From Domibacillus sp. DTU_2020_1001157_1_SI_ALB_TIR_016 (GTDB lineage: Bacteria; Bacillota; Bacilli; Bacillales; Domibacillaceae): 64,000 nucleotides of DNA. Where the stretch lies: positions 3,059,501 to 3,123,500 of the forward strand of contig NZ_CP135439.1 of assembly GCF_032341995.1 (NCBI RefSeq), written 5' to 3'. Below are positions 21,568-50,990 of the stretch, in pieces; position 1 is the stretch's first letter; each line of letters begins with the position of its first letter. The notes beneath the pieces were generated by a model. That model was not told where the DNA came from. It worked only from the letters and a program-made list of their open reading frames with translations, and did no database searches. Position numbers and translations under genes: made by a program.

Positions 21568-21593
21568 AAAACCACCTATTTTCTAGGTGGTTT
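21568..21593. terminator. duplicated terminator hairpin, left copy
   Basis: The hairpin AAACCACCTA-TTTTC-TAGGTGGTTT is identical over 25 bases to the terminator of the sucrose hydrolase gene at 21913-21937. The two copies bracket the repeat element exactly. Confidence 0.9.
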
Positions 21594-21912
21594 CAGTGTG
21601 TAGACAAAGTCTTTCTCTTTTAAATAAGAGCCGATAAGTGTTATTGAATATCAATAAGCAAGGATTGAATAGAAATTTTTTCTATTTAAATAGAAAGATA
21701 CAACCTTATTAGCTCTATACCATCTTGTTGCAAGCCACTTGGCGGCGGGAGGGCAGCGCAGACTCCTATGGAACTAGCTGGCAGCTGAGACCGATGGAGC
21801 CGCCAGGCGAAGTCGGGCTCAGCGCCTGCCCCATGGAAAGCGGAGCTGCCTGGACGCCGCCGATCTATCCAATTCATGTACGCGATCATCCATATCATTT
21901 GTCTCCAGTCTG
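21594..21912 (+). repeat. terminator-nested repeat element, copy A (short form)
   Basis: A 319-bp element with ends CAGTGTGTAGACAAA on the left and CAGTCTG on the right; the right end read inward on the other strand starts CAGACTG. It shares blocks with copies B (33169) and C (48250), including GAGCCGATAAG, a block starting GCCACTTGGCGGCGGGAG and a block ending GACGCCGCCGATC. It lacks the CCTGCGGGG module found in B and C. It has no credible gene. Identical 25-bp terminator hairpins flank it on both sides like a target duplication. Confidence 0.85.
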
Positions 21913-21937
21913 AAACCACCTATTTTCTAGGTGGTTT
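21913..21937 (-). terminator. sacA1 terminator
   Basis: Perfect 10-bp stem AAACCACCTA / TAGGTGGTTT, nine bases after the stop codon of the minus-strand sucrose hydrolase gene. It is also the right-hand member of the duplicated hairpin pair. Confidence 0.85.
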
Positions 21938-33136: not shown

Positions 33137-33168
33137 AAAGCATAGGCGAATAAGTTCGTCTGTGCTTT
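33137..33168. terminator. duplicated terminator hairpin, left of copy B
   Basis: The 32-bp hairpin AAAGCATAGGCGA...TCTGTGCTTT matches the flavin-reductase terminator at 33583-33614 in 27 of 32 positions. It marks the other side of the repeat element. Confidence 0.85.
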
Positions 33169-33582
33169 GAGACTGTCGAAAAATTATATGGATGACCGTG
33201 CACATGAATGGGATAGATCGGCGGCGTCCGGGCAGCTCCGCTTTCCATGGGGCAGGCGCTGAGCCCGACTTCGCCTGGCGGCTCCACCGGTCTGCGCCGC
33301 CCTTCCGCCGCCAAGTGGCTTGCGACAAGATTGGATAGAGCCAATAAGGTTGTATCTTTCTATTTAAAAAAGAGAAAATGTCTATTCAGCCTGTGCTTAT
33401 TGGTCTTCAATACCACTTAGTGAAGCCTACCCGACGAAGACTCCTGCGGGGGAAGTACAGTGAGTCGGGAGACCCCGCAGGCGCAGCCGAGGAGGCTCCC
33501 GTACTGCCCTAAGGGGCGCGAAGTCCAGCCGGCTTCACTTATCGGCTCTTCTTTAAAAGCGAAAGATTTTGTCTACACACTG
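33169..33582 (-). repeat. terminator-nested repeat element, copy B (long form)
   Basis: A 414-bp element in the opposite orientation to copies A and C: it starts GAGACTGTCGAAAAATT and ends GTCTACACACTG. It contains the GGCGGCGTCC and GCCAAGTGGC blocks, plus a GC-rich module (CGAAGACTCCTGCGGGG through GACCCCGCAGG) that could fold into stems. The only open frames are fragments without ribosome sites. Terminator hairpins flank both ends. Confidence 0.88.
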
Positions 33583-33614
33583 AAAGCACAGGCGAGCAAA
33601 TTCGCCTGTGCTTT
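33583..33614 (-). terminator. flavin reductase terminator
   Basis: The stem AAAGCACAGGCGA / TCGCCTGTGCTTT lies 19 bases after the stop codon at 33633, and its imperfect twin lies at 33137-33168 beyond the repeat element. Confidence 0.85.
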
Positions 33615-35408: not shown

Positions 35409-35439
35409 AAAGACCGCTTTTAATTTAAAAGCGGTCTTT
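35409..35439 (-). terminator. terminator of ykvR-rpiA-hypothetical operon
   Basis: The stem AAAGACCGCTTTTA / TAAAAGCGGTCTTT contains the stop codon at 35425-35427 in its loop. An A-rich tract lies on one side and T residues on the other. Confidence 0.85.
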
Positions 35440-35799: not shown

Positions 35800-35803
35800 C
35801 CTA

Positions 35804-36487
35804 TCACTCCTGTTTTGTTCGTTTTTTAACCTGTATCTCTTGTTTTTCATTTACAGTAATGATCGTATCCGCCATGTCGATAAACAATCCGTTTTCTACA
35901 ACACCAGGGATGAGATTCAATTCCCGCTCCAATTCTTCAGGCGACGCAATAAGACCAAAATCGCAGTCAAAAATATAATGCCCATTATCAGTGATATACG
36001 GCTTTCCTTCTTTTACCCGTAATGCAGATGCCCCTCCTAAAGAACGGATTTTTTTCTCTGTCATCTTGTATCCGAATGTCTCGACCTCAACCGGAAGAGG
36101 AAACCGCCCGAGTTGTTCGACCATTTTAGAAGGATCCGCCACTACTACAAATCTCCGTGCGGAAGAGGCAATGATTTTTTCCCGCAGAAGCGCTCCTCCT
36201 CCGCCTTTGATTAAATGAAAAGCAGGATCGGCTTCGTCAGCGCCATCGATAGCCAGATCGAGCTCGTCCACTTCCTCCAGGCTGAGAAGAGGAATTCCGC
36301 ATTCTTTCGCTAATTGTTCCGTTCGAATCGACGTAGCCACGCCTTGAATGGACAAACCCTGTTGAACGAGCCCGCCTATTTTCTCAATGGTATACCGTAC
36401 TGTACTGCCTGTTCCAAGACCAATGATCATGCCGTCTTCTACAAACTCCGCCGCTTTTTCACCGACGAGCTGCTTTTCCGTTGTCAT
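35804..36487 (-). CDS. rpiA: ribose-5-phosphate isomerase A
   Basis: A 227-residue RpiA, which interconverts ribose-5-phosphate and ribulose-5-phosphate in the pentose phosphate pathway. The signatures are GLGTGSTVRYTIEKI near residue 22, DGADEADP near 80, the catalytic KGGGGALLREK near 94 and FPLPVEVETFGY. Its ATG overlaps the ykvR stop by four bases, and a small hypothetical gene follows after four bases. Confidence 0.96.
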   Translation of the reverse strand: MTTEKQLVGEKAAEFVEDGMIIGLGTGSTVRYTIEKIGGLVQQGLSIQGVATSIRTEQLAKECGIPLLSLEEVDELDLAIDGADEADPAFHLIKGGGGALLREKIIASSARRFVVVADPSKMVEQLGRFPLPVEVETFGYKMTEKKIRSLGGASALRVKEGKPYITDNGHYIFDCDFGLIASPEELERELNLIPGVVENGLFIDMADTIITVNEKQEIQVKKRTKQE

Positions 36488-36780
36488 TGGCCGATCAGTT
36501 CCAGACTGAATGTCCCTGTTGCGCCCGCTTCATATAAATTCGTTACCGAGGTAGAATACGTGTGAATCATGGCCGGAAACTCCATTCCTTTTTCGGGCAC
36601 CTTCACTTGAAAATCATTTTCATATAAAAGAACCGTTATATCATGATACTCTTCGCTTGTGACGCGAAATTGAAAGCTGATTTTTGGCACTTTTGCACCC
36701 GTCTTTTTATTTACAACCGTTTCTTCGTGAAAGTTCTCCACCTGAATCGGCGTATCATTCAAGATCACTTGCTTCACCAT
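36484..36780 (-). CDS. ykvR: DUF3219 protein, YkvR-like
   Basis: A 98-residue protein of the DUF3219 family. It matches B. subtilis YkvR in character: IQVENFHEETVVNKKTGAKV, then ISFQFRVTSEEYHDITVLLY. It is a beta-rich cytoplasmic protein of unknown function. It is the first gene of the ykvR-rpiA-hypothetical operon, with an ATGA overlap to rpiA. A TATAAT box lies about 35 bp upstream on the minus strand. Confidence 0.85.
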   Translation of the reverse strand: MVKQVILNDTPIQVENFHEETVVNKKTGAKVPKISFQFRVTSEEYHDITVLLYENDFQVKVPEKGMEFPAMIHTYSTSVTNLYEAGATGTFSLELIGQ

Positions 36781-36874
36781 TTTTCACTCAGCTCCTATCT
36801 TTATCGTTAGAGCCATTATAATGCTCCTTTTTTAATTGAGCCATTTTTTCGCTTCACTGCTCTCATTTAAATAA

Positions 36875-36909
36875 AAAACCTTTCACTGCTCCAAACAGTA
36901 AAAGGTTTT
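36875..36909 (-). terminator. ABC exporter terminator
   Basis: The stem AAAACCTTTTACTG / CAGTGAAAGGTTTT (minus strand) is followed by TTATTT. It lies right after the stop codon at 36917. Confidence 0.85.
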
Positions 36910-36916
36910 AATAAGC

Positions 36917-38635
36917 TTATACGTGGCCGAACTGCGCTTCATGCAAACGCCGATAATGGCCGTTTTGCTCGAGCAGTTCATAATGGCTGCCTTGTTCTTC
37001 AATGCCTGATGGCGTAACGACAATAATCCGGTCGGCATGCTTGATTGTAGCGAGCCGATGGGCAATCACAAGCGTTGTCCGCCCGACAGACAGCTCCGAA
37101 AGCGCCTGCTGAATGGCAAGCTCTGTTTCCGTATCAAGAGCAGACGTTGCTTCATCCAATATTAAAATCGGCGGGTTTTTCAGGAAAATCCGCGCAATGG
37201 CAAGACGCTGCTTTTGGCCGCCCGACAGCTTTACGCCGCGTTCGCCAATGACCGTATCGAGTCCATCTGGCAAAGAAGAAACAAATTCATCAAGACGCGC
37301 CCGTTTTAAAGCGGACAGGATAGCTTCTTCAGACGCACCAAGATCTCCATATAAAATATTTTCACGAATCGTGCCAGAAAACAAGAATACATCCTGCTGC
37401 ACGATCCCAATTTGACGACGCAGCGACGCAAGCGACATTTTTCTCGTGTCGAGCCCATCAATTGAAATAAATCCTTCCTGCGCATCGTAAAAACGCGGCA
37501 GCAAGCTGCACATAGTCGTTTTACCAGCACCGGACGGACCGACAAACGCCACTGTTTCTCCGGCTTTAATCGACAAGCTGATATTTTGGAGAACCGGCTT
37601 TTTCCCTTCGTACCCGAACGTCACGTTATGGTAGCTGATGTCGCCATGTACTGCGTCTACGTCTATGGCATCTGGTGCATCCGCTACATCGGGAGCCGTC
37701 TGGAGCAGTTCCACATAGCGTTTAAAACCGGCAATTCCTTTCGGGTAACTTTCAATAATGGCATTAATTTTTTCAATCGGACGGAAGAAAATATTAGATA
37801 GGAGAATAAATCCGACAAATTCACCGTAGGTAAGCTCACCCTGCATCACAAAATACGTTCCGCAAATAAGTACAAACAGTGTAATCATGCGCATAAGCAT
37901 GTAGCTGATTGACATATTCTGCGCCATAATTTTATAGGAGATAAGCTTTGTCAGCCGAAATCTTCCATTGTTTTCTTCAAATTGCTTCTTTTCATGTGTT
38001 TCGTTCGCAAAAGCCTGCACGACACGAATGCCGCCCATGCTGTCTTCAATACGGGCATTGAAATCAGCAATGTCACCAAAGAGCTGGTGAAAAGCCCTGG
38101 TCATTTTTTTATTGAAGAAAACAGCAAGCCATAACACAGCCGGCACAATAATAAATGTTAACACGGCCAGCTTCCAGTTGATTGTCAGCATAATGCCAAA
38201 CGCTCCGGTGAGCGTCATCAGTGCAATAAACAAATCTTCCGGCCCATGATGTGCCATTTCACCAATTTCCATTAAATCACTTGTCATCCGTGAAATAAGA
38301 TGGCCTGTTTTTGTGTTATCAAAAAAACGGAATGACAGCTTTTGCACATGGGCAAACAGTTTGCTGCGCATATCTGTTTCAATATTAATGCCGAGCATAT
38401 GCCCCCAGTATGTAACCACGTACTGAAGACCAGCGTTTACAATATAAATAAACAGCAAGCCAATGCTTGCGGCTACAATTAAATTCCAGTTTTCCCCGGG
38501 CAGAAGTGTATCAATAAAATAATTCACAACGAGCGGAAATGCGAGCTCTAACAGACCCGCAAATACCGCACAAAAAAAGTCTAAGAAAAACAGTTTCTTA
38601 TATGGACGGTAATACGAAAAAAAATACTTAATCAC
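36917..38635 (-). CDS. ABC multidrug/lipid exporter half-transporter
   Basis: A 572-residue MsbA/Sav1866-type half-transporter. The N-terminal membrane domain spans about 1-310 with six helices. The ATPase domain follows with Walker A VGPSGAGKTTMCSLLPRFY, Q-loop IVQQDVFLFSGTIREN, signature LSGGQKQR, Walker B ILDEATSALDTE and H-loop IAHRLAT. It works as a dimer exporting lipids or drugs; the substrate is not readable. GTG start with AGGTGA upstream. It lies 26 bases after the siderophore ATPase gene yusV and may share its transcript, although the functions look unrelated. Confidence 0.92.
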   Translation of the reverse strand: MIKYFFSYYRPYKKLFFLDFFCAVFAGLLELAFPLVVNYFIDTLLPGENWNLIVAASIGLLFIYIVNAGLQYVVTYWGHMLGINIETDMRSKLFAHVQKLSFRFFDNTKTGHLISRMTSDLMEIGEMAHHGPEDLFIALMTLTGAFGIMLTINWKLAVLTFIIVPAVLWLAVFFNKKMTRAFHQLFGDIADFNARIEDSMGGIRVVQAFANETHEKKQFEENNGRFRLTKLISYKIMAQNMSISYMLMRMITLFVLICGTYFVMQGELTYGEFVGFILLSNIFFRPIEKINAIIESYPKGIAGFKRYVELLQTAPDVADAPDAIDVDAVHGDISYHNVTFGYEGKKPVLQNISLSIKAGETVAFVGPSGAGKTTMCSLLPRFYDAQEGFISIDGLDTRKMSLASLRRQIGIVQQDVFLFSGTIRENILYGDLGASEEAILSALKRARLDEFVSSLPDGLDTVIGERGVKLSGGQKQRLAIARIFLKNPPILILDEATSALDTETELAIQQALSELSVGRTTLVIAHRLATIKHADRIIVVTPSGIEEQGSHYELLEQNGHYRRLHEAQFGHV

Positions 38636-38661
38636 ACAGTCACCTGCTTTATTGAATTCCT

Positions 38662-39477
38662 TTAGCGGCTTCCTGCCAGCGCAAGTTCTGGTGCTTTTGC
38701 CAAGTCATAGGTTAAACAAACTGGCTTGCCGGAACGAGGATCGCGGACAATTTCCGCATCAATTTGAAAAACAGAACGCAGATTTTCTTTTGTCATAACC
38801 GTTTCTGGCGTTCCCTCGCATATGATACTGCCTTTTCTCATCGCGACGAGGTAATCGGCGAAGCGTGCCGCGTGGTTTAAATCATGGAGCACCATCACAA
38901 TGGTCCGGCCTTCCCGTTCATTTAATTCCTGTAAAAGCTCCAGCACTTCCAGCTGATGGGCCAAGTCTAAGTAGGTCGTTGGTTCATCGAGTAAAATCAA
39001 ATCTGTTTCCTGTGCCAGCGCCATCGCGATCCAGACACGCTGACGCTGTCCGCCTGAAAGCGCGTCAATTTCCCGGTCACGGAAGTCCGCCGTACCGGTT
39101 ACATCCATCGCCCACTGGATCACTTCTTTATCGTGTGCGTTTAGTGCGCCAAAGCCTTTTTGATGCGGGAAGCGGCCGTATGAAATCAGCTCATAGACAG
39201 TTAGTCCAGCTGGAGCTTCCGGCGTTTGCGGCAAAATAGCCATTTGCTTCGCGATTTCTTTTGTGGACAGACGGTGAATGTCCGCACCATTTAAGTACAC
39301 CGAACCGCTGTTTTGATTTAAAAGACGTGCCATTGTTTTGAGCAATGTGGATTTCCCGCAGCCGTTCGGCCCAATAATCGTTGTTACTTTTCCCGCTGGA
39401 ATATCGACGGTTAAATCCTCGACGATTGTCGCAGCCCCATAGCCAATGTTTACTTGTTCCGCACGCAGCTTGCTCAT
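38662..39477 (-). CDS. yusV: iron-siderophore ABC importer ATPase, YusV-like
   Basis: A 271-residue FecE-type ATPase with Walker A IIGPNGCGKSTLLKTMARLL, ILPQTPEAPAGLTVYELI, signature ALSGGQRQR and Walker B LLDEPTTYLDL. It closely follows B. subtilis YusV, the shared ATPase for bacillibactin and other siderophore permeases, and like yusV it has no permease beside it. The start is ATG 39477 behind GAGGTGG. A Fur-box match lies 55-70 bp upstream. Confidence 0.92.
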   Translation of the reverse strand: MSKLRAEQVNIGYGAATIVEDLTVDIPAGKVTTIIGPNGCGKSTLLKTMARLLNQNSGSVYLNGADIHRLSTKEIAKQMAILPQTPEAPAGLTVYELISYGRFPHQKGFGALNAHDKEVIQWAMDVTGTADFRDREIDALSGGQRQRVWIAMALAQETDLILLDEPTTYLDLAHQLEVLELLQELNEREGRTIVMVLHDLNHAARFADYLVAMRKGSIICEGTPETVMTKENLRSVFQIDAEIVRDPRSGKPVCLTYDLAKAPELALAGSR

Positions 39478-39531
39478 TTCTTCCACCTCGTTTACGTTTT
39501 TCCTTTATCATCTATATCGGACGGTTGCAAT

Positions 39532-39546
39532 TGATAATCAGTTTCA
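39532..39546. promoter_or_regulatory. Fur box upstream of yusV
   Basis: TGATAATCAGTTTCA matches the Bacillus 7-1-7 Fur consensus TGATAATNATTATCA at 12 of 14 defined positions, in the promoter region of the siderophore ATPase gene. Confidence 0.7.
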
Positions 39547-39595
39547 ATTAAAAGTTATCATAAAATTGCCTGCTCTGTCCAGACTTTCGAAGAAA

Positions 39596-39621
39596 AAAGC
39601 CTTGAACGGATTCAAGGCTTT
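39596..39621 (-). terminator. rocB terminator overlapping the stop codon
   Basis: A perfect 11-bp stem AAAGCCTTGAA / TTCAAGGCTTT is followed by TTTTCTTC on the minus strand. The rocB stop codon (39612-39614) lies within the stem. Confidence 0.9.
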
Positions 39622-41216
39622 CTGTGTTTAATCCATTTTTCTAAAAGAACAGGAAGCTGTTCAAAAGCATGTTTCATGTGAAGCCGTTCTGTCCGTTTGT
39701 GGGCATCTTTGCCGAACGGCCCGATGTTTAAAACCGGTGCTTTGAGCTTAGCCATATCGGCAAATGGAATGGAATAGCCGTCCTGCCATACAGGTGTATT
39801 TTTTTCAAACGCCTGCCAGCCTTCTCCCTCGCCGTTTCCATTCACATAACTTAAATCACAAATGCCGTTAAAGTAATGGACCCGTTCAATCGGCAGCCCA
39901 AACTCTTTTTGGGCCAATGTTGTTAGAAACTCGACGGCTTCTTCTACGAGCGCCTCACCGGAAGAATAAACAGCGGGATAAAAAGGAGGCGCAAACAGCA
40001 GAATAATGGCTGGTGCCAGCTCCTGTGACTGGATAATCAGTTTATCCGCGATCCGAAATGACTTTTCCCGATCGTCCCATTCTTCCCGAGTGTACACATC
40101 CGCTTTGATTTCTTCTATTGCTTCTTCTCCCAGTTTATCGATTGAGTAGCGCAGCAGCTCTTCGAAGCGGATGACACGGACCTTCCCTACCGGCTTCACA
40201 CCGTGCATTTGGCAGATTTGTTCATAGGCAGCATTACATTCTCCGGCTGCTTCTTTAGCAATTTGTTCAAATCCTTCTATTATATGTTGTGCTGTCTGCT
40301 TCATTAAAAATACGTTGTAAAGAGCAGATGAACGGTATGGCGTCTGCGTTGAATATTCAAGACGAAGATCTTTTTGCTGCAGGGTGACGGGAAGCGGTGT
40401 TGTTTCACCAAGCTCCGTTTCTTGAAACAGGGGGTTCCATTCCATTTTTCGTGTTAAAAATGACGCGATGTAAGGGGACGTTAATCCGTTAAATGGCTCG
40501 CCCGCATGTGTTTCACGTCCATAAAAAAGGGCACCCGGCATAATTTTTCCAATCGTACCCGTATAGACCTTACGCGTCCTATCACCCGGCTCCTGAGAAA
40601 AAACAGGCTCGCTATTTAAAAATAGTTCATATTCAAGATCAAATTCCTCTTGAATTTCCAACAGTTTCGGCACAGCGGCGCGCATTCCAGCTGAGTTTAC
40701 TTCTTCATCCGGCACGGTTAACAGCAGCAGATTGACGGGCCATTGTTCCACACTTGCTTTCTCAATAAGCTGCATATGCAAAGCCAGCCCCATTTTCATA
40801 TCCATCGTCCCGCGTCCGAATAAATACTCACCTGATTGCAAATCAGCCAGCACGTCCGGCGGCAGATCATTCGGCCGCTCCAGCCAGTAGGCAGTCAATT
40901 CCTCCGGCTGCGTCGCCAGCGGCTCCAACTCGCCATATTCTTCTGTACTGACTGTGTCAAAATGGCTGATCAAGCAAATGGTGCGCACAGCTTTTGGATG
41001 TTTGTAAAGCGCCGTTAAAAACCTCCGCCGCAAATCAGCTGGATGAAGGGACAGGTGCTCAGGATGCTGCTGAAAATAGTGAAGTCCGAGCAGCTTCGAT
41101 TGCAGCTTCATTGGAAACTGCCGCTCATCCTCAGACAAGGTGATGCTTTTCCAGCTGACAAGCTCATCCAGCAGGGCACGAAGTTTTTCTGGTGAATCCC
41201 ATAGACGCTTTTTCAT
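39612..41216 (-). CDS. rocB: M20-family peptidase RocB
   Basis: A 534-residue M20 metallopeptidase-like protein of the RocB type. Metal ligands appear in LISHFDTVSTEEYG near residue 85 and GRGTMDMKMGLALHM near 135, then PDEEVNSAGMRAAV near 170. RocB is part of the Bacillus arginine-utilisation regulon, but its reaction is not settled. ATG 41216 follows GGAAAGGG at ten bases. It lies downstream of rocG, separated by a terminator; I see no clear promoter of its own in the short gap. Confidence 0.92.
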   Translation of the reverse strand: MKKRLWDSPEKLRALLDELVSWKSITLSEDERQFPMKLQSKLLGLHYFQQHPEHLSLHPADLRRRFLTALYKHPKAVRTICLISHFDTVSTEEYGELEPLATQPEELTAYWLERPNDLPPDVLADLQSGEYLFGRGTMDMKMGLALHMQLIEKASVEQWPVNLLLLTVPDEEVNSAGMRAAVPKLLEIQEEFDLEYELFLNSEPVFSQEPGDRTRKVYTGTIGKIMPGALFYGRETHAGEPFNGLTSPYIASFLTRKMEWNPLFQETELGETTPLPVTLQQKDLRLEYSTQTPYRSSALYNVFLMKQTAQHIIEGFEQIAKEAAGECNAAYEQICQMHGVKPVGKVRVIRFEELLRYSIDKLGEEAIEEIKADVYTREEWDDREKSFRIADKLIIQSQELAPAIILLFAPPFYPAVYSSGEALVEEAVEFLTTLAQKEFGLPIERVHYFNGICDLSYVNGNGEGEGWQAFEKNTPVWQDGYSIPFADMAKLKAPVLNIGPFGKDAHKRTERLHMKHAFEQLPVLLEKWIKHRKP

Positions 41217-41238
41217 ACCGATCAATCCCTTTCCAAAT

Positions 41239-41272
41239 AAAAGAATGTCCCTTCATTTTGGGACATTCTTTT
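41239..41272 (-). terminator. rocG terminator
   Basis: The stem AAAAGAATGTCCC / GGGACATTCTTTT lies between rocG and rocB, followed by TATTTGG on the minus strand, so read-through into rocB may be partial. Confidence 0.82.
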
Positions 41273-41316
41273 ACTTTTTTCAATTTTCGTGGAAGAAAGA
41301 CTGCCAGACTCTTTAT

Positions 41317-42636
41317 TTACACCCATCCTCTGAATGTCGCTGCTTCCGCCGCACGTTTAATGCCGACAATATAAGCTGCAAGCCGCATATCAACCCCATG
41401 TATTTGCGCCGTTTCATAAATGAGGTTAAACGAATCGACCATTCTCTTTTGCAATTTTTGCATAACCTCTTCTTCTGACCAGTAATACCCTCCATTATTT
41501 TGCACCCATTCAAAATACGAAACCGTTACGCCTCCAGAGCTTGCCAAAATATCCGGAACAAGCAAAACGCCGCGCTCGGTTAATTGTTTCGTTGCACCAA
41601 TCGTCGTCGGGCCGTTCGCTGCTTCTACAATAATTCCTGCCTTGATGCGCTCTGCGTTTTCTTCCGTGATTTGGTTGGAAATGGCCGCTGGAATTAAAAT
41701 GTCACAGTCAAGCTCCAGCAGCTCCTGGTTTGAGATCGTGTCTTCGAACAGATTTGTCACCATGCCAAAGCTGTCGCGGCGGTCCAGCAAGTAGGGAATA
41801 TCAAGCCCATTTGAATCATGAATACCGCCAAGCACATCCGAGATACCGATAATACGAGCGCCTTCATCATGCAAAAACTTGGCCAGGAAGCTGCCGGCAT
41901 TGCCAAATCCTTGAATGACAATACGGGCGCCTTCAATTTTTATTCCTTTTTTTCTGACCGCTTCTCTTAAGCACATGACGACTCCCTGTGCAGTTGCCGT
42001 TTCCCGGCCGTGAGATCCGCCAAGTACAATTGGTTTTCCGGTAATAAAGCCAGGAGAATCAAATTCCCGTATATGGCTGTACTCATCCATCATCCAGGCC
42101 ATAATTTGCGCGTTTGTATACACATCTGGAGCCGGTATATCTTTGGTCGGCCCGACAATCTGGCTGATTGCGCGTACATAGCCGCGGCTGAGCCGTTCAA
42201 GCTCACCAGCTGACATTCGCTGCGGATCGCAAATAATGCCGCCTTTTCCACCGCTGTAAGGAAGACTGGCAATCCCGCATTTAAGTGTCATCCAAATCGA
42301 TAGCGCTTTTACTTCTTCTTCCGTCACGTTCGGATGAAACCGGACGCCGCCTTTGGTCGGGCCGACTGCGTCACTGTGCTGGGAGCGAAAGCCGGTAAAC
42401 ACCTTTACATGCCCATCATCCATTCGGACTGGAATCCGAACTGTCAGCATCCGCATAGGTTCCTTTAATAATTCGAAGACACTTTCAGGGTATCCGAGTG
42501 TATCAAGTGCTTTCTTTATAATCGTTTGGGTAGATTGAAACAAGCTGCTTACTTGTTTTTGCTTTTCTTCATTTGGAATCGCTGCTGATTTTTGAACAAG
42601 CGGCTTTTCTTTTATTTCGTTTTTCAGCATGGGCAT
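41317..42636 (-). CDS. rocG: glutamate dehydrogenase RocG
   Basis: A 439-residue catabolic Glu/Leu/Phe/Val dehydrogenase: substrate-binding PVRMDDGHVKVFTGFRSQHS, the catalytic lysine region LPYSGGKGGI, and the NAD-binding IQGFGNAGSFLAKFL. It deaminates glutamate to 2-oxoglutarate, the last step of arginine breakdown. The start is ATG 42636, preceded by GAAAGGTGG; the longer frame would run through the promoter. A sigma-54 -24/-12 promoter lies 35-55 bp upstream. Cluster position favours RocG over its homologue GudB. Confidence 0.94.
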   Translation of the reverse strand: MPMLKNEIKEKPLVQKSAAIPNEEKQKQVSSLFQSTQTIIKKALDTLGYPESVFELLKEPMRMLTVRIPVRMDDGHVKVFTGFRSQHSDAVGPTKGGVRFHPNVTEEEVKALSIWMTLKCGIASLPYSGGKGGIICDPQRMSAGELERLSRGYVRAISQIVGPTKDIPAPDVYTNAQIMAWMMDEYSHIREFDSPGFITGKPIVLGGSHGRETATAQGVVMCLREAVRKKGIKIEGARIVIQGFGNAGSFLAKFLHDEGARIIGISDVLGGIHDSNGLDIPYLLDRRDSFGMVTNLFEDTISNQELLELDCDILIPAAISNQITEENAERIKAGIIVEAANGPTTIGATKQLTERGVLLVPDILASSGGVTVSYFEWVQNNGGYYWSEEEVMQKLQKRMVDSFNLIYETAQIHGVDMRLAAYIVGIKRAAEAATFRGWV

Positions 42637-42671
42637 CGCGGCCACCTTTCTATTTGATCTTATGAAAAAGA

Positions 42672-42689
42672 ATGCAAGGATTATGCCAA
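42672..42689 (-). promoter_or_regulatory. rocG sigma-54 promoter
   Basis: On the minus strand TTGGCA, six bases, TTGCAT gives the exact -24/-12 spacing of sigma-54 promoters. It lies directly upstream of rocG, and the cluster encodes the sigma-54 activator RocR. Confidence 0.85.
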
Positions 42690-42739
42690 AAACAGCGGAC
42701 GCTATTTCAAAGGGATTAGCCTTCGGAAAAATAAAAATA

Positions 42740-42777
42740 GACAATAAATTTTGCGTATAGCAGAAAAATTTATTGTC
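42740..42777. promoter_or_regulatory. palindrome upstream of the rocG promoter, possible RocR site
   Basis: GACAATAAATTTT and AAAATTTATTGTC form 13-bp arms around a 12-base centre that contains GCGTATAG. It lies 50-100 bp upstream of the -24 box, the usual place for an activator site. AATTTTGCGTAT inside it is shared with the rocA upstream palindrome. Confidence 0.5.
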
Positions 42778-42790
42778 TGGAAGCAAAAAA

Positions 42791-42818
42791 GAAACCGGCG
42801 GATTTATCCGCCGGCTTC
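42791..42818 (-). terminator. rocD terminator
   Basis: The stem AAGCCGGCGGA / TCCGCCGGTTT (minus strand) is followed by CTTTTTTGC, four bases after the rocD stop codon. Confidence 0.88.
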
Positions 42819-42821
42819 TTA

Positions 42822-44024
42822 TTAAGCAAAAATCTTTTGAATTTTTTCGATGGCCCAATCGAGATCTTCTTTAGAAATAATCAACGGCGGAGCAAAACGG
42901 ATCACCGTTTCATGTGTTTCTTTGCATAAAAGACCTTCCTGTTTTAAACGCTCGCAGTATGGACGAGCTGGCTCTGTCAGCTCAACGCCGATAAACAATC
43001 CGCGTCCGCGCACTTCTTTAATTGCCGGATGTGTAATCGCTGACAGCTTTTCTTTAAAGTACGTACCAAGTTCCAATGAACGCTCTACAAGCTTTTCTTC
43101 CTCAATCACTTGGAGTGAAGCGAGCGACACCGCACACGCAAGTGGGTTGCCTCCAAAAGTAGAACCATGCGATCCAGGGTTAAACACCCCTAATACGTCT
43201 TTGTCTGCCACAACACAGGAAATCGGGAATACTCCGCCGCCCAATGCTTTCCCAAGAATCAGCATGTCTGGAACAACATCTTCCCACTGGCAGGCAAACA
43301 ATTTACCGCTGCGGGCAAGGCCGGCTTGAATTTCATCTGCAATAAACAGCACGTTTTGTTCTTTACACAGCGTTGAAGCTGCTTTTAGGAAGCCTTCCGG
43401 TGGAATGACAATCCCAGCTTCACCTTGAATCGGTTCAATTAAAAAGGCAGCTGTGTTAGGGGTAATGGCTGCTTCAAGCGCGTCGATATCGCCATATGGG
43501 ATCAGCTTGATTCCGGGCAGCATCGGTCCAAAACCGCGTTTATATTCTGCTTCTGAAGAAAGCGATACAGCAGTCATTGTCCGCCCATGAAAATTGCCGA
43601 CACAGGCGATGATTTCAGCCTGGTTTTCTGCCACACCTTTTACGTCATATGCCCAGCGGCGTGCTGCTTTCACTGCTGTTTCTACCGCTTCCGCTCCAGT
43701 ATTCATTGGCAGAGCCATATTTTTACCCGTTAATTCACAAATTTTTTCATACCACGGACCAAGCTGGTCATTGTGAAAAGCACGTGAAGTAAGTGTAACC
43801 CGGTCTGCCTGGTCTTTTAGTGCCTGAATAATTTTCGGATGACGATGCCCTTGATTAACAGCGGAATAAGCGCTCAGCATATCCATGTAACGATTGCCTT
43901 CCGGATCTTTTACCCATACCCCTTCTGCTTCCGACACAACGATTGGCAGCGGATGATAGTTATGCGCCCCAAATTGCTCCGTTTGTTCAATGATTTTTTT
44001 CGATGAGTTTGTTGCAGATGTCAT
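42822..44024 (-). CDS. rocD: ornithine aminotransferase RocD
   Basis: A 400-residue class-III PLP aminotransferase. It has [19 protein letters not shown] near residue 105, [12 protein letters not shown] near 145, the pocket motif [15 protein letters not shown] near 235 and the PLP lysine in [11 protein letters not shown]. It converts ornithine and 2-oxoglutarate to glutamate semialdehyde and glutamate. GGGGGAG lies before the ATG, 22 bases downstream of the rocA stop, so rocA and rocD form one transcript. Confidence 0.95.
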
Positions 44025-44046
44025 TTTCTTCTCCCCCTTTTTAAGT

Positions 44047-45594
44047 TTAAAAAAATTCCGAAATCGTTTTTCCCTGCATGTGAAGAATCAAATAATCCGG
44101 GCTTCCTGCTTTTGAATCGGTTCCTGACATGTTGAAGCCGCCAAATGGCTGGTAACCGACAATGGCACCTGTGCAGCCGCGGTTAAAGTAAAGGTTTCCG
44201 ACGTGGAACTCTTTGCGGGCTCTGTTAATATGTTCACGATTGTTGGAGATAAGTGCTCCGGTTAAGCCGTAATCCGTGTTGTTTGCAATCTCCAGCATGT
44301 GATCGAAATCTCTTGCCTTGCAAAATGCGACGACCGGGCCAAAAATTTCTTCCTGCATAAGGCGGTCCCGTTCCCCTACATCAGCAATAATCGTCGGCTC
44401 AATAAAGTAGCCGGTTTCATCATTCCCATTTCCTCCGGTTACAAGCCGGCCTTCTCCTTTGCCAATTTCAATGTAGTTCATAATTTTTTGGAATGCCCGT
44501 TCGTCAATCACCGGGCCCATATACGTATCAGCAGATTCCGGGCTGCCCAGCGTTAACGTTTTCGTTAAGGCCGCTGCTTTTTCGAGCACTTCATCATATA
44601 CATCTTCGTGAATGACCGCGCGCGAGCCAGCAGAACATTTTTGGCCGGAAAATCCAAAGGCTGAATAAACAATAGATGTTGCGGCAAGATCCAAATCGGC
44701 GCTGCTGTCAACAAGCATTGTATCTTTGCCGCCCATTTCTGCAATGACCCGCTTCAGCCAAATTTGTCCTTCCTGCACTTTTGATGCCCGTTCGTAAATA
44801 CGGCAGCCAACGGCACGAGAGCCGGTAAACGAAACGAAGCGTGTTTTCGGATGCTCTGTTAAAAAGTCACCAATTTCGGCACCGCTGCCCGGGATATAAT
44901 TCAGAACGCCCGGCGGAAGACCTGCTTCCTCCATCACCTCTACAAATTTTGCCGCAATAACCGGTGTGGTTTCTGCCGGTTTTAACAGAACAGTGTTGCC
45001 CGTTACAATGGCTGCGACTGTTGTGCCGGCCATGATGGCCAGCGGAAAATTAAACGGTGAAATCACAATGCCGACACCAAGCGGAATGTAACCGAACTCA
45101 TTATGCTCACCCGGACGGCTTTGAACGGGTGATCCCTTTTTCAGCTCGTTCATTTGGCGTGCATAGTACTCCAGGAAATCAATCGCTTCCGCTGTATCTG
45201 CATCTGCTTCTTTCCATGGTTTTCCTGCTTCTTTTACAAGCCATGCCGAAAATTCATGCTTTCTGCGCCGGATAATCGCAGCTGCGCGGAATAAAATCTG
45301 AGCGCGTGCTGACGGATCTGTATACTGCCACGTTTGGAAAGCAGTGAGCGCTGCCTGCATCGCCTGCTCGGCTTCTTGTTTACCTGCCATTGAAACCGTT
45401 CCGATCACTTCTTCCTTGCGTGCCGGGTTGATGGATGCTGTTTTCGTTTCTGTCTGTACACGCTTTCCATTAATGACAAGCGGGTATTCTTCACCGAGCT
45501 TTGTATTTACAAACCCAAGCGCCTCTTGAAACGCCTGCTTGTTTTCTTCCACACTAAAATCAGTAAATGGTTCGTGCTTGTATGCGATTACCAT
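44047..45594 (-). CDS. rocA: 1-pyrroline-5-carboxylate dehydrogenase RocA
   Basis: A 515-residue aldehyde dehydrogenase that oxidises glutamate semialdehyde to glutamate with NAD. The features are [28 protein letters not shown], the general-base glutamate in IAEMGGKD and the catalytic cysteine in [11 protein letters not shown] near residue 300. It begins at ATG 45594 after GGAGGGATC; the longer frame crosses the promoter. It heads the rocA-rocD operon under a sigma-54 promoter and is divergent from rocR. Confidence 0.95.
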
Positions 45595-45633
45595 GATGAT
45601 CCCTCCAGAAAAATAACTGTCTCGCTTTATACT

Positions 45634-45651
45634 ATGCAAGAAGCATGCCAT
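45634..45651 (-). promoter_or_regulatory. rocA-rocD sigma-54 promoter
   Basis: On the minus strand ATGGCA, six bases, TTGCAT reproduces the -24 GG and -12 GC of a sigma-54 promoter, 40-57 bp upstream of rocA. Confidence 0.85.
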
Positions 45652-45701
45652 TTTTTTAACGTGCGGAAGATCAGCTTTTGTTTCCTTGAAACTCTTTCAA
45701 T

Positions 45702-45720
45702 ACGCAAAATTATTTTGCAT
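45702..45720. promoter_or_regulatory. probable RocR activator site (UAS)
   Basis: ACGCAAAATTATTTTGCAT contains the 15-bp palindrome GCAAAAT-T-ATTTTGC, 50-70 bp upstream of the rocA -24 box in the rocA-rocR divergent gap. RocR binds palindromic upstream sites in B. subtilis. Confidence 0.65.
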
Positions 45721-45804
45721 GTGACGAAAAAATTTGCCTTTTCAGTCTATTTTTTTTGCTCTATAGTGAATGAGAGCAACACACCTGAAACGGAGGACTC
45801 CGGG

Positions 45805-47214
45805 ATGAAAGAAGATCAGCTGCATTTTATGAACGCCTTATATGAATATATTATGGATCAAGTCGACGTGGGGATTCATGCGATTGACGAAGAAGGGAAA
45901 ACCATTATTTATAACCGAAAAATGCGTGAAATCGAAGCAATGGACACGCAGGATGTGCTGCACAAAAATGTACTGGACGTATTTATGTTTCCCGAAAACC
46001 AAAACAGTACGCTCGTCCGGGCACTGCAGCAGGGAGAAGAAACCGTCAATGTAAAACAAACATACTTTAATAATAAAGGAACGGAAATTACAACTATTAA
46101 TCATACATTTCCGTTCCGGGAAAAGGCTGAAATCCGCGGTGCCGTTGAAATGGCTAAGGATGTTACGAAAATTGAACGCCTCATGCGCAGCAGTACCCGA
46201 AAGGAGGATACACGCTTTACATTTGACAGTATTATCGGCAAGAGCGATGCCATACAGGAAGTGATCGAGCTGTCCAAGCGGGCTACCCGTACTTCTTCCT
46301 ATGTGCTTGTCGTTGGCGAAACCGGCACAGGAAAAGAACTGTTTGCACAAAGCATCCATAACGGGAGTGCCCGGGCTTCAGCACCGTTTATCTCACAAAA
46401 CTGCGCGGCGCTGCCAGACAACTTAATTGAAGGGCTGCTATTTGGTACCACAAAAGGGGCTTTTACCGGAGCCATTGACAGCGCCGGCTTGTTCGAGCAG
46501 GCAGAAGGCGGCACGCTTCTTCTTGATGAAATCAACTCAATGAATATTCACCTGCAGGCGAAGCTGCTGCGTGTTCTTCAGGAAAAAAGGGTCAGACGGA
46601 TCGGCGGCACGAAAGATATTTCAATTAACGTCCGGATTATCGCCACGATCAATGAAGACCCTATCGATGCAATCGCAAACGATCACTTGCGCAAAGATTT
46701 ATATTACCGGCTTGGAGTAGTGACCATTTTTATTCCTCCGCTTCGCGAGCGCTTGGATGACATTCCGCTGTTAATCGAGCAATTTATCACGAAATACAAT
46801 GCACTGTTTGATATGAAAGTACTCGGTGTAAAGCCGGAAGTGCTAGATGCTCTCAATGCGTATCATTGGCCTGGAAACGTGCGGGAGCTTGAGCATGTGA
46901 TCGAAGCATCCATGAATTTGCTTTTAGACGAGGAATGGATCGAATATGATCATCTCCCTTATCACTTCCGCCATAAATCAATGACAAGCGACCAGTCTGC
47001 ACCCGTATCAAAGCTTGCCTCATTCCTTAATGGCGACGAAGAAGGAACCACTCATTTGAAAGATCAGCTGGATGCCTTTGAAAAATACTACATTGAGCAT
47101 TTCCTGCATAAGAACCAATGGAGTATTTCCAGGACCGCTAAGCAGCTGGGCCTGAGCAGGCAAAGTCTTCAATACCGTTTAAAGAAAGTCGGCCTCTCTT
47201 CAAAAAATGAATAA
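45805..47214 (+). CDS. rocR: sigma-54-dependent activator RocR
   Basis: A 469-residue enhancer-binding protein. A PAS-like sensor domain spans about 1-120 (MDQVDVGIHAIDEEGKTIIY). The AAA+ domain has Walker A GETGTGKE and the sigma-54-contacting GAFTGA. A Fis-type helix-turn-helix lies at the end (SISRTAKQLGLSRQSLQYRL). In B. subtilis RocR responds to ornithine or citrulline and turns on the roc operons. ATG 45805 follows CGGAGG; the longer frame lacks a ribosome site and overlaps rocA. The sigma-54 promoters found at rocA and rocG are its likely targets. Confidence 0.94.
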   Translation: MKEDQLHFMNALYEYIMDQVDVGIHAIDEEGKTIIYNRKMREIEAMDTQDVLHKNVLDVFMFPENQNSTLVRALQQGEETVNVKQTYFNNKGTEITTINHTFPFREKAEIRGAVEMAKDVTKIERLMRSSTRKEDTRFTFDSIIGKSDAIQEVIELSKRATRTSSYVLVVGETGTGKELFAQSIHNGSARASAPFISQNCAALPDNLIEGLLFGTTKGAFTGAIDSAGLFEQAEGGTLLLDEINSMNIHLQAKLLRVLQEKRVRRIGGTKDISINVRIIATINEDPIDAIANDHLRKDLYYRLGVVTIFIPPLRERLDDIPLLIEQFITKYNALFDMKVLGVKPEVLDALNAYHWPGNVRELEHVIEASMNLLLDEEWIEYDHLPYHFRHKSMTSDQSAPVSKLASFLNGDEEGTTHLKDQLDAFEKYYIEHFLHKNQWSISRTAKQLGLSRQSLQYRLKKVGLSSKNE

Positions 47215-47313
47215 ACAAGTATAAATACTCCAAAAGATGCGTGCTTGAGCCATTTTATTTTTTGTATGTTTACTAAAACAGCAGGGCATTTACGATGCAA
47301 AGGGGACATTTAC

Positions 47314-48219
47314 ATGCAAAAGAAACAAGTGTCAATCATAGGGGTACCAATGGATTTAGGGCAAACACGCCGGGGTGTCGACATGGGTCCAAGCGCCATC
47401 CGCTATGCGGGACTGACAGAGCGAATCCGCACGCTTGGATATACAGTCCACGATGAAGGCGATATTAAAGTGGAAATTCAGGAACGGGCCATTCCAAAAG
47501 AAACAGCCAACTTAAAAAATTTAACAGCGGTTGCAGAGGCTAGTGAAGCGCTGGCAAAAAAAGTGGAAGAAACGGTCAGCCAGGGCCGCTTTCCGCTTGT
47601 ACTCGGCGGTGATCACAGCGTGGCAATCGGAACGCTTGCAGGCATCGCAAAAAAACATCAAAGCCTCGGCTTGATCTGGTATGATGCGCATGGCGATTTA
47701 AACACAGCGGAAACCTCTCCATCCGGCAACATTCACGGGATGCCGCTTGCCGCGAGCCTCGGCATCGGACACCGCTCTCTCACCCATATTGGCGGCTATT
47801 CTCCGAAAGTAAAGCCGGAGAATGTGGTAATTATTGGGGCAAGGGATTTGGATCATGGTGAGCGTGAGCTCATTAAAGAAAAAGGAATTAAAGTGTACAC
47901 CATGCATGAAATAGACCGTCTTGGCATGACAACCGTTATGAAAGAAACCATCGAATATTTGCGTGAGCGCGCCGATTATGTTCATCTTTCATTGGACCTT
48001 GATGGGCTTGATCCGACAGAAGCACCGGGAGTGGGGACGCCTGTTGCAGGCGGGCTCAGCTACCGCGAAAGCCACTTGGCGATGGAAATGCTTGAGGAAG
48101 CGAACATCATTACGTCAGCGGAATTTGTGGAGGTCAACCCTATTTTAGATGAGAAAAATAAAACAGGCGATGCAGCAGTGGCGCTTATTGCTTCTCTGCT
48201 TGGTGAAAGACTTCTTTAA
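47314..48219 (+). CDS. rocF: arginase RocF
   Basis: A 301-residue arginase, which hydrolyses arginine to ornithine and urea. Manganese-binding motifs are GGDHSVAIG near residue 100, [10 protein letters not shown] near 126 and SLDLDGLDP near 226. The start is ATG 47314 behind AAAGGGGAC; the longer frame has no ribosome site. It follows rocR on the same strand, 99 bases away. Sequence resembling a -24/-12 box just upstream is too close to the start codon to be its promoter. Confidence 0.95.
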
Positions 48220-48221
48220 AA

Positions 48222-48249
48222 AAACGCCGCACAACCCTGTGCGGCGTTT
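48222..48249 (+). terminator. rocF terminator (left copy of duplicated hairpin)
   Basis: The stem AAACGCCGCAC / GTGCGGCGTTT begins two bases after the rocF stop. The related hairpin at 48677-48701 lies beyond the repeat element. Confidence 0.88.
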
Positions 48250-48676
48250 CAGTGTGTAGGCAAAGTCTTTCGCTTTAAAAAAAGAGCCGACAAGTGAAGC
48301 CTGCCTGACTTCGCGTTCCACGGGCAGTGCGGGAGTCTCCTCGGCTGCGCCTGCGGGGTCTCCCGACTCACTGTACTTCCCGCAGGAGTCTTCGTCCGGC
48401 AGGCTTCACTAAGTGGTGTTGAAGAGCAATAAACAAACACTGAATAGACGTTTTCTCTTTTTTAAATAGAAAAACACGACCTTGTTAGCTTTATACAACC
48501 TTGTCGCAAGCCACTTGGCGACGGGAGGGCGGCGAAGGACGAGCGGGCAGCTCAGACCGGTGGAGCCGCCAGGCGGAGTCGGACTCAGCGCCTGCCCATG
48601 GAAAGCGGAGCTGCCTGGACGCCGCCGATCAGCCCATTCATGTGCACGGTCACCCATATAATTTTTCGACAGTCTG
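48250..48676 (+). repeat. terminator-nested repeat element, copy C (long form)
   Basis: A 427-bp element, inverted relative to copy B: CAGTGTGTAGGCAAAGTC at the left end, ATTTTTCGACAGTCTG at the right. It has the same order of blocks: GAGCCGACAAGTGAAGCC, a GC-rich module with CCTGCGGGGTCTCCCGACTC, an AT-rich bridge, GCCACTTGGCGACGGGAGG, and GACGCCGCCGATC. The open frames inside are fragments. Hairpins of the rocF terminator type flank it on both sides. Confidence 0.88.
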
Positions 48677-48701
48677 ACGCCGCACAACCTATACGGCGTT
48701 T
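48677..48701 (-). terminator. kimA terminator (right copy of duplicated hairpin)
   Basis: ACGCCGCACAACC followed by TATACGGCGT is a slightly decayed copy of the rocF terminator. It lies three bases after the kimA stop. T residues follow on the plus strand and an imperfect tract on the minus strand, so its strength for kimA is uncertain. Confidence 0.7.
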
Positions 48702-48703
48702 TT

Positions 48704-50566
48704 TTACTTTTTCAAATGATAAGGCACCGTTGTGACAACGACATTTCTACGGTAAAGCAGAAAAGCCCGGATAAGCAGACTGGATTGATTGTGAAGAAAG
48801 TTATGCCAACCTTTTTTCGGAATAAACTGCGGAATAAGAACCGTCACCTGATAATTCGATTCGCGCGCCTTATGCTCTACTGTGTCCACAAATTTTGTCA
48901 GCGGCTGAATAATACTGCGATACTGCGAGTGTAAGGTAACCAGCCGTACATCCGGCTGCCATGTACTCCACTTTTCTTCAAACTTCTTTTCGTCTTCTCT
49001 TTCAAATGCAACATAAACAGCAATGATCCGCTCGGGTGAAAGAGACTTCGCATAGTTTAAAGAGTTTTCAACTACATGTGTAATACCGGAAACCGGCACA
49101 ATAATAATATTTCCTTCAATCGGCACAACAGGCTCGCATGTCGTAATACGCAGCTGGTCACCGACCGCTTCATAATGCATTTTAATCCGGTGAAAGAGGT
49201 AAATAATAATAGGCAGAAACACAAGTACTGACCAAACCTGTGCAAACTTTGTTAAGAAAAACACGATCGTGACAATAAAGCTGATCAAAGCTCCGGTTGT
49301 ATTAATCACAAATTTCGTGACCCATCCTTTTGGCTTTTCACGAAGCCATTTTACCATCATTCCCGTTTGCGAAAGCGTAAATGGAATAAACACGCCGACC
49401 GCGTAAAGCGGAATCAAGTTTTCCGTATGCCCGCCAAATAAAATAATTAAAAGTATAGAAGCAGCACCTAAGATCATAATACCATTCGAGTAGCCAAGCC
49501 GATCTCCTCTAAAGGTAAACATTCTTGGAATAAATTTATCCTGCGCCAAGTTTACCGCCAGTAAAGGAAATGCCGAATATCCTGTATTCGCGGCGAGAAT
49601 TAAAATTAAAGCGGTCGTTCCTTGAATAAAGAAATACATAAAAGTACGGCCGAATGTTTCTTCTGCAATTTGAGAGACCACCGTTACTTCTGCCAGCGGC
49701 GAGATGCCATAATAATAAGCCAAATATACAATACCCCAAAACAAGAGGGCCAGCAGAAGCCCCATTGCTGTCAGCGTTTTGGCTGCATTGACCGGAGCCG
49801 GGCTTTTAAAGTTCGGGATCGCATTAGAAATTGCTTCAACTCCCGTTAAAGCGGAACTTCCCGATGCAAACGCCCGCAGCAGAATAAATAAGCTGATGCC
49901 TGCAACCGGGGTTCCGGCCGGAGTATGCAGATCCGGCGGCACCTCACCGGTTGCGATTCGAAACAGCCCCACACCAATTAAAATAAACAAAGCAAGGACA
50001 AACAAATAAACCGGATACGCCAGCACGGAGGCAGATTCTGTCACTCCACGCAAATTAAGAAGCGTTAACAGCACAACAAATATAACAGCGATCATTACAT
50101 TGTATTCATGCAGGGCTGGAAAAGCGGACGTAATGGCGTCTGTACCAGCCGACACACTAACGGCAACCGTTAAAATATAATCAACCAGCAGCGATCCCCC
50201 GGCTATCAGCCCCGGATTGGTTCCCAGGTTTGTTTTCGACACCACATATGCGCCGCCGCCTTGCGGATAAGCATAAATAATTTGCCGATAAGACAGGATC
50301 AGTGCTGTTAATAAAATGAGCACACCGAACGCGATCGGAATCGAATACCAAAAAGCAGCTGCGCTAACAGTCATTAAAACAAGCAGTATTTGTTCCGGAC
50401 CATACGCAACAGACGAAAGAGCATCTGAGGACAAAATGGCAAGTGCTTTTGTTTTGTTTAATTTTTGTTCCCCAAGCTCAGTTGACTTTAACGGCCGCCC
50501 GATCAAAAACCGTTTCACAGAAGACACCACGTTGTTCACCATCCAGTTTTGAAGTGTGTATTTCAC
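48704..50566 (-). CDS. kimA: high-affinity potassium importer KimA
   Basis: A 620-residue KUP/APC-type potassium-proton symporter. Twelve or so membrane segments (about 35-465) include SSDALSSVAYGPEQILLVLM, YRQIIYAYPQGGGAYVVSK and SALTGVEAISNAIPNFK, followed by a cytosolic C-terminal domain to the end (NVVVTTVPYHLKK). It matches B. subtilis KimA (YdaO) closely. The start is GTG 50566, eight bases after AAGGAAAGAG; ATG 50542 lacks a ribosome site. A c-di-AMP riboswitch lies in the 5' leader, so high c-di-AMP should shut it off. Confidence 0.94.
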   Translation of the reverse strand: MKYTLQNWMVNNVVSSVKRFLIGRPLKSTELGEQKLNKTKALAILSSDALSSVAYGPEQILLVLMTVSAAAFWYSIPIAFGVLILLTALILSYRQIIYAYPQGGGAYVVSKTNLGTNPGLIAGGSLLVDYILTVAVSVSAGTDAITSAFPALHEYNVMIAVIFVVLLTLLNLRGVTESASVLAYPVYLFVLALFILIGVGLFRIATGEVPPDLHTPAGTPVAGISLFILLRAFASGSSALTGVEAISNAIPNFKSPAPVNAAKTLTAMGLLLALLFWGIVYLAYYYGISPLAEVTVVSQIAEETFGRTFMYFFIQGTTALILILAANTGYSAFPLLAVNLAQDKFIPRMFTFRGDRLGYSNGIMILGAASILLIILFGGHTENLIPLYAVGVFIPFTLSQTGMMVKWLREKPKGWVTKFVINTTGALISFIVTIVFFLTKFAQVWSVLVFLPIIIYLFHRIKMHYEAVGDQLRITTCEPVVPIEGNIIIVPVSGITHVVENSLNYAKSLSPERIIAVYVAFEREDEKKFEEKWSTWQPDVRLVTLHSQYRSIIQPLTKFVDTVEHKARESNYQVTVLIPQFIPKKGWHNFLHNQSSLLIRAFLLYRRNVVVTTVPYHLKK

Positions 50567-50809
50567 TGTTTTTGCTCTTTCCTTGCTGTTTTTACGCAGA
50601 AAAAACCAATGACATTTTTTCCACGCGAAAACAAGAAAAGAATTTTCCTGATTTGCAATTGAAAAAAACATCATTGGTCTACGTAACGCCCAGCAAGCAC
50701 TTCTGCCCTCTTTGCGTTCTGTCTTCCAAGCTGTTTTTTTAAAACTAGGCACAATAAAAAGACCTACTTTTTTGATCAAGCTGCCCTCTTTCGCAGCAGT
50801 ATACCGCCA

Positions 50810-50990
50810 CAAAAAAAAGCCCCCTGAATAAAGGTGGTCTTTAGACCTCCCTCGCTTTAGCCGACGAAGTTAGCTGACGGGCAGGATGGCGAAGAAGTAC
50901 TCTCATCCTTTCCACAAAAACCGTGGAATTAGCCCCGAAAAAATTGGGTCCTCCGTTCCCCGCTGGGGGATTAGGCCGATTATGTGTTTG
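50810..50990 (-). ncRNA. c-di-AMP riboswitch (ydaO-yuaA class) with terminator
   Basis: On the minus strand the conserved ydaO core is readable: GGGGAACGGAGGACCCAA, GGGGCTAATTC, GGATGAGAGTAC, then CCATCCTGCCCGTCAGCTAA and TCGTCGGCTAAAGCGAGG. It is followed by a GGTCTAAAGACC hairpin and a CAGGGGGCTTTTTTTT tract that can terminate transcription. This aptamer class binds c-di-AMP and turns off potassium importers. It begins about ten bases after a strong promoter and ends about 245 bases before the kimA start; that remaining leader holds no gene I can support. Confidence 0.93.

Follow-up and report, generated by a model that had tools for sequence, protein, structure and literature searches.

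The 427-bp non-coding element found between rocF and a convergent permease-family gene in the window (the whole stretch of 64,000 nucleotides of Domibacillus DNA analyzed here) is in all likelihood a MITE moved by an IS1182-type transposase, whose joins would be symmetric and close to the feet of a hairpin or a cruciform, the hairpin itself being the target duplication. Direct reading (48250-48676, CAGTGTGTAG...CAGTCTG) confirmed that the element has no genes and lies between near copies of the rocF terminator hairpin, as an earlier note made from the sequence alone had described. The left hairpin, which that note had placed at 48222-48249, is present, the interval given including two A's before it and two T's after it. 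Again at 21568-21937 and 33137-33614, where the same arrangement had been claimed, we found a MITE between copies of its own local hairpin. The features of the three sites are listed below, with the state of the site in some relatives (G006, of the same species as the genome of the window, G000; G009 and G010).

47245..48219, + strand: rocF (arginase), upstream neighbour (ORF list; TIGR01229 rocF_arginase, 363 bits, cut-off 228)
48224..48247, no strand: left terminator hairpin copy (target duplication), ACGCCGCACAACCCTGTGCGGCGT (direct reading; single in G006 and G010)
48250..48676, + strand: MITE, 427 bp, without transposase gene (dispersed matches, mapped ends, absent from G006 and G010)
48250..48264, + strand: left terminal repeat, CAGTGTGTAGGCAAA (end mapping, direct reading)
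48309..48394, + strand: G+C-rich palindromic module, element positions 60-145 (blastn matches to a repeat from the leaders of several Bacillaceae IS1182 elements)
48662..48676, - strand: right terminal repeat, inward reading CAGACTGTCGAAAAA (end mapping, direct reading)
48677..48699, no strand: right terminator hairpin copy, ACGCCGCACAACCTATACGGCGT, followed by six T's at 48700-48705 (direct reading)
48704..50812, - strand: gene convergent with rocF, a 702-aa ORF of the amino acid permease family (ORF list; PF13520, 118 bits)
21569..21593, no strand: second site, left hairpin copy (direct reading, flank test)
21594..21912, + strand: second MITE copy, 319 bp, a short form without the G+C-rich module
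21913..21937, no strand: second site, right hairpin copy, identical to the left one over 25 bp
33137..33168, no strand: third site, left hairpin copy
33169..33582, - strand: MITE copy of the third site, 414 bp (G006 and G009 lack it)
33583..33614, no strand: third site, right hairpin copy; the one hairpin of G006 has the identical sequence

At the rocF site the left hairpin starts 4 nt from the rocF stop codon and is separated from the element by TT (48248-48249), and the stop of the permease-family gene is located 4 nt past the right hairpin. An alignment of these two hairpins spans 26/25 nt and needs one gap. The duplication is perfect over 25 bp around the 21594-21912 copy and matches at 27 of 32 positions around the 33169-33582 copy. 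A second element type is represented in the window by a decayed relative at 17249-17567, which resembles elements of G006:C115. Its right end (CGACTTTGTCGACAGCCCTG, 17526-17545) is followed by a hairpin (GACCAGATATTTATGCCTGGTC, 17546-17567), and no left partner was seen for it.

The 427-bp element is a dispersed repeat with 58 BLAST matches in the 5.10-Mb genome (G000), some of which are split pieces of one copy. The ends read inward CAGTGTGTAGACAAAGTCTTTC and CAGACTGTAGACAAATGATATGG, with CAGNNTGTNGACAAA as the common part. Short, present in many copies, bounded by terminal inverted repeats and without a transposase gene, it has the attributes of a MITE. By pairing the ends found in a scan of G000 we obtained 34 two-ended copies of 150-547 bp, about 10 one-ended or decayed ones being excluded. 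A strict ungapped test for duplicated flanks, a check of the kind suggested in the earlier note, was passed by 27 of the 34, which exceeds what chance would give. In 26 of these 27 the centre of the duplication was at most 0.5 bp from the hairpin dyad. Five of the seven failing copies (C2:890514, 1446292, 3004467, 3107750 and 3195951) have recognisable hairpin pairs that are diverged or gapped, and the one at C2:3107750 is the rocF copy itself. As for the remaining two, 2457096 has a doubtful duplication, and 1655166, which has none, probably consists of the ends of two different elements. When the two hairpin copies at MITE sites were compared, selection keeping both of them paired was not evident. 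There were 2 compensatory pairs, 16 with a tolerated one-sided change, 20 broken on one side, 1 broken by changes on both sides and 229 unchanged, giving no sign that both copies are maintained. At C2:711882-712320 the loop of one hairpin appears, by eye, to be nearly the reverse complement of the other.

Other types of element with the same ends were also found between duplicated hairpins, for example at C2:3257933-3258082 (150 bp) and G006:C115:335504-335920 (417 bp). A loose end scan gave 13 pairs in 351 kb of G000 and 20 in 496 kb of G006, many of them due to chance. Hairpins were located outside the motif ends of this loose scan in 17 of 70 cases in G000, against 3 of 300 random positions, and in 14 of 128 cases in G006, against 7 of 300, both being weak statistics. 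A plasmid search with the 427-bp element gave 7 records matching 18-19% of it. We also considered the MITE as a structured RNA, a reading that was left unsupported: no Rfam match at gathering scores was found, with two matches below threshold, and folding was mildly better than that of shuffles (z -1.8 and -1.4). A 4175-bp segment of G000 (C2:1597183-1601357; L064:3184-7358) is bounded by MITE right and left ends and flanked by two hairpin copies, AAGCACCGCCCTCGGGCGGTGCTT / AAGCACCGCCGAGGGGGCGGTGCTT. It contains several small ORFs, one of them for an 89-aa protein of the CPCC family (PF14206), no transposase being recognised among them, and looks like a cargo-carrying derivative. Besides, element positions 60-145 resemble a G+C-rich palindromic repeat found by blastn in 11 of the 107 fetched loci (76-80% in most). 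In several IS1182 loci this repeat is about 140 bp long (GTTGATTT...CTCCAATCAAC), its core being common with the MITE. In L209, L213, L214, L228 and L263 the repeat has the left IS end on one side and the transposase on the other. In L221 and L225 it is upstream of the IS, and it may for this reason be an independent repeat.

We have searched relatives for empty sites with window positions 31500-50800 as the query, comparing the rocF and the 33-kb sites. One of these relatives, G006, has a 3,163-bp stretch identical to Domibacillus indicus MSL 225.1.2, which makes D. indicus the probable host species. The matches flanking the rocF site overlap by 26 bp in G006 and by 24 bp in G010, indicating one hairpin and no element. 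The same was found at the 33-kb site, with overlaps of 32 bp in G006 and 31 bp in G009 that again correspond to one hairpin. Relatives with an empty site and a single terminator do therefore exist for both. The two findings that the earlier note had named as contrary to its reading (most copies without paired hairpins, or empty sites already holding two terminators) were not what we saw at these sites. The target duplication is proven by an empty site at two of the three sites of the window. Together with the flank tests, these single-hairpin relatives bear out the proposal that the element is mobile but non-autonomous, goes into intrinsic terminators and duplicates their hairpins. We consider it shown, at the level of sequence comparison, that the insertions take place at terminator-like hairpins, symmetrically about the dyad and with the hairpin itself as the target duplication. 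The 33-kb hairpin of G010 also holds an element, which is inverted relative to that of the window and cut short at one of its sides. Seen by eye, the loop of the rocF terminator in G010 is the reverse complement of the one in G006 and G009.

No match to an IS1182-type transposase was found in the genome of the window (G000). The MITEs of G000 are orphans, and the same species and genus still have a transposase of this type. An element of 1583 bp in G009 (L103:1079-2661) has the same 15-bp ends as the MITE and encodes a 452-aa protein that scores 475 bits on the IS1182 model NF033551 (cut-off 270) and also matches PF13751 and PF05598. It follows a flagellin-like gene, and the hairpin flanking it is perfectly duplicated over 22 bp. 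In G001 (L167) a copy with one internal stop in its transposase frame is flanked by a perfect 26-bp hairpin duplication. The ends of both elements are CAGACTGTAGACAAA / CAG[AC][CT]TGTAGACAAA. The IS1182 model was matched in 9 of the 13 genomes of the genus, above the cut-off in 4 of the 13. The earlier note had guessed at the IS1182 family and at a transposase with the same end sequences, and both have turned up in the same species and genus. The shared ends and the shared target rule suggest that this IS moves the MITEs in trans. The rocF terminator of G009 is split, one contig ending and another beginning with CAGACTGTAGACAAA, which adjoins in both the same 28-bp palindrome AAATGCCGCACAGAGCTGTGCGGCATTT; we read this as a probable independent insertion of a full IS at this terminator, broken up in the draft assembly. 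Several contigs of G006, G009 and G002 end within or just past an IS end adjoining a hairpin, as expected of repeated ISs in draft assemblies. Two further IS1182 subgroups occur in the genus, represented by L176 (26% identity to L103) and L170 (21%). They have different ends, as far as these can be seen, and no obvious hairpin duplication, one copy being without its left flank and the other having unclear ends. A search by sequence gave no solved relative of the transposase.

The genomes of GTDB were scanned with an alignment of two transposases. At least 197 relatives were confirmed, and we took the best 80 loci, all from named genomes. This sample, drawn with two peptide patterns, is biased towards one transposase clade, and the repeat motif was the sole basis for calling the ends. 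Among these best 80 of at least 197, 21 loci lacked one end and 4 ran off the contig, leaving 55 with both ends and flanks, to which all the following counts of IS copies refer. A direct duplication of at least 15 bp was found in 49 of the 55, with identical copies in 46 of the 49. Its centre was exactly at the hairpin dyad in 45 and within 0.5 bp of it in 46 of these 49. Self-complementarity reached at least 0.8 in 43 of the 49, against 0.07% of the windows of the same length shifted by up to 15 bp. In this best-80 sample the duplications measured 18-42 bp, with a median of 26 and no helical phasing (R 0.175, p about 0.22), and their length was moderately correlated with that of the palindrome (r 0.44, p 0.0016). 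Often they ended inside a longer palindrome. The duplication of the whole hairpin, as claimed in the earlier note, stands as regards the centring on the dyad, but the outermost pair of the palindrome is not always reached. The first two bases of the duplication were AA or AG in 40 of the 49, and it started with no more than three A's (mean 1.6), placing the join in the A/T tract that borders the stem. Such a tract (5 in 8) was present on at least one side in 39 of the 49. The hosts of the 49 included Bacillus, Neobacillus, Cytobacillus, Sporosarcina, Saccharibacillus, Exiguobacterium, Enterococcus, Romboutsia and clostridial or Selenomonadales MAGs. Of the six copies without a long duplication, three (L230, L256 and L273) are flanked by two strong hairpins that differ from each other, perhaps as the result of recombination between copies, in which case they would be marks of genome rearrangement. 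L235 has 7 bp instead, and L257 and L261 have no duplication and a left end that is doubtful or decayed.

How could a transposase duplicate hairpins of such different sizes? DDE transposons usually cut a fixed few bases apart. In the mechanism that we propose, what the transposase would recognise is the shape of the DNA: the hairpin extruded as a cruciform, a four-way junction. The 3' ends of the transposon would be joined on the 5' side of the hairpin of each strand and gap repair would then copy the hairpin, so that the stagger would be set by the size of the hairpin and not by a fixed number of bases. The main argument for the recognition of a structure is that measuring along a straight helix would favour certain lengths, while the feet of a folded-out hairpin meet at any size. 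The duplications that end inside palindromes, and the r of only 0.44, indicate that the outermost foot of the hairpin is not the cut site. Rather, the junction would tend to settle among the A/T pairs that border the stem. A join in this tract would fit a four-way junction resting in A/T pairs, and equally a short sequence preference; the near-constant A/T context does leave room for a sequence rule. We give about even chances to the wider statement that this clade of IS1182-type DDE transposases is structure-selective, with resolvase-like symmetric joins at cruciform feet, duplication of whole hairpins of any size and a self-protecting life style.

Tandem terminators do occur in bacteria, and the element might have landed between two older ones, or else carry the hairpins itself. 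However, the hairpins differ from site to site and match in pairs, and a single hairpin is present at the rocF and 33-kb sites of relatives that lack the element, leaving this explanation with a practically negligible probability. The A/T context is a more serious matter, as it would be expected if the transposase subunits read a short motif at the base of the terminator (AAA outside, AR...YT inside and TTT outside) and the hairpin were incidental. The context is strong at both junctions, and cuts fall within the A/T tract even where the palindrome extends (e.g. L212, L228 and L246). On the other hand, exact centring on the dyad in 45 of 49, over a free and unphased spacing of 18-42 bp, is hard to obtain from two motifs on straight DNA. 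Besides, 10 of the 49 have no A/T tract (5 in 8) on either side, and among these all but L233 are centred to within 0.5 bp. We regard direction by sequence as unlikely.

We also think it quite improbable that targeting is coupled to transcription, with a paused RNA polymerase at the terminator, or the RNA hairpin, attracting the transposase in place of a DNA cruciform. The targets are terminator-like, with an A/T tract on at least one side in the 39 of 49 already mentioned, and the available part of PMC9208149 reports IS1182 elements as over-represented between convergent genes, an excess that agrees with this idea and fits insertion at terminator hairpins in general. But the duplication is symmetric on both DNA strands, for which a signal from one-strand RNA alone is insufficient, and 10 of the 49 targets are not typical terminators.

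Returning to the preferred reading, a join near the feet of the folded hairpin would have consequences for the neighbouring genes. The supposition of the earlier note that both neighbours keep a working terminator holds only in part, since the hairpin copy adjacent to the gene is severed from its T-tract. In the 49 IS copies (best 80 of at least 197) the near hairpin copy keeps no more than three T's (mean 1.5) before the element, and a run of at least three T's past the far copy was found in 23 of the 49. The full terminator, where present, is thus on the far side of the insertion. The rocF site has the same layout, the near copy being followed by TT and the element, and the long T-tract being past the far copy. 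The left IS end folds through its inverted repeat into a hairpin in 26 of the 55 copies of the same sample, all 26 being followed by at least 6 T's in 9 (e.g. L198, L209 and L217). Such a folded end with its T-run is a predicted built-in intrinsic terminator. At the right IS end, a hairpin that includes the end region was seen in 23 of the 55.

The proposed mechanism would explain why such insertions can be nearly harmless, and predicts longer transcript 3' ends. It also suggests that paired terminators around a non-coding block may flag mobile DNA. If the self-protecting life style is true, it would comprise IS left ends that form terminators, together with swarms of MITEs and cargo derivatives in the tails of transcripts. 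The dyad-centred and unphased spacing of 18-42 bp makes the published conjecture of transposition into folded DNA directly testable with natural elements.

Several known systems are similar in part. Terminators or palindromes are also the sites occupied by class C group II introns and by IS1111-type and REP-targeting elements, which use different enzymes and are not known to duplicate the whole hairpin. Mobile insertion cassettes such as MIC231 have IS ends and passenger genes without a transposase and belong to the IS231 family. The 4175-bp segment of G000 resembles MIC231 in its IS ends and cargo, and differs in the family.

The closest precedents are IS1272 and TnSha1, two members of the IS1182 family from Staphylococcus. 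In the available parts of PMC5678879 and PMC4923244 they are described as targeting hairpins without sequence consensus, including terminators confirmed by RNA-seq, and a cruciform model is proposed for them. The hairpin as target is common to IS1272 and to our IS copies (46 of 49 within 0.5 bp of the dyad, best 80 of at least 197). However, IS1272 and TnSha1 delete the stem-loop and leave no duplication according to the same texts, whereas here the hairpin is duplicated (49 of 55 IS copies of the best 80 of at least 197; one hairpin at empty sites and two at occupied ones). The structure-selective clade, if it is real, would be the duplicating counterpart of the deletion of the stem-loop by IS1272. 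The duplication of a whole stem-loop is actually drawn in PMC5678879 as a possible pathway b. Both papers cite reviews in which some IS1182 members target palindromes, detailed data being absent from these reviews according to the available part of PMC5678879. The transposition of the family is varied, with or without duplication and with a sequence or a structure as target (PMC12056078, as far as its available text goes). ISPse1, of the same family, is listed with 4-bp direct repeats instead of hairpin duplications in the accessible part of PMC3281130, and listings of this kind indicate that hairpin duplication does not extend to the family as a whole. ISMac2 had already provided an example of an IS1182 element with MITEs (160 and 169 bp), and the repeats listed for these, 4 or 0 bp as the columns of the accessible part of PMC3852290 read, are not hairpin duplications.

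Within Enterococcus, plasmid copies annotated as ISEfa7 (IS1182-like) are 57% identical to the Domibacillus transposase, and the chromosomal relatives L232, L234, L241 and L243 (from the best 80 of at least 197, and distinct from the ISEfa7-annotated copies) have hairpin duplications. Among the records listed from the literature searched, with few subscription papers in it, systematic duplication of the whole hairpin was not found and appears as a hypothetical pathway only. ISfinder gives long, variable direct repeats for the IS1182 family, and its curators may know individual cases. The targeting of hairpins by relatives of IS1182 is already published, and what may be new here is the systematic duplication of the whole hairpin.
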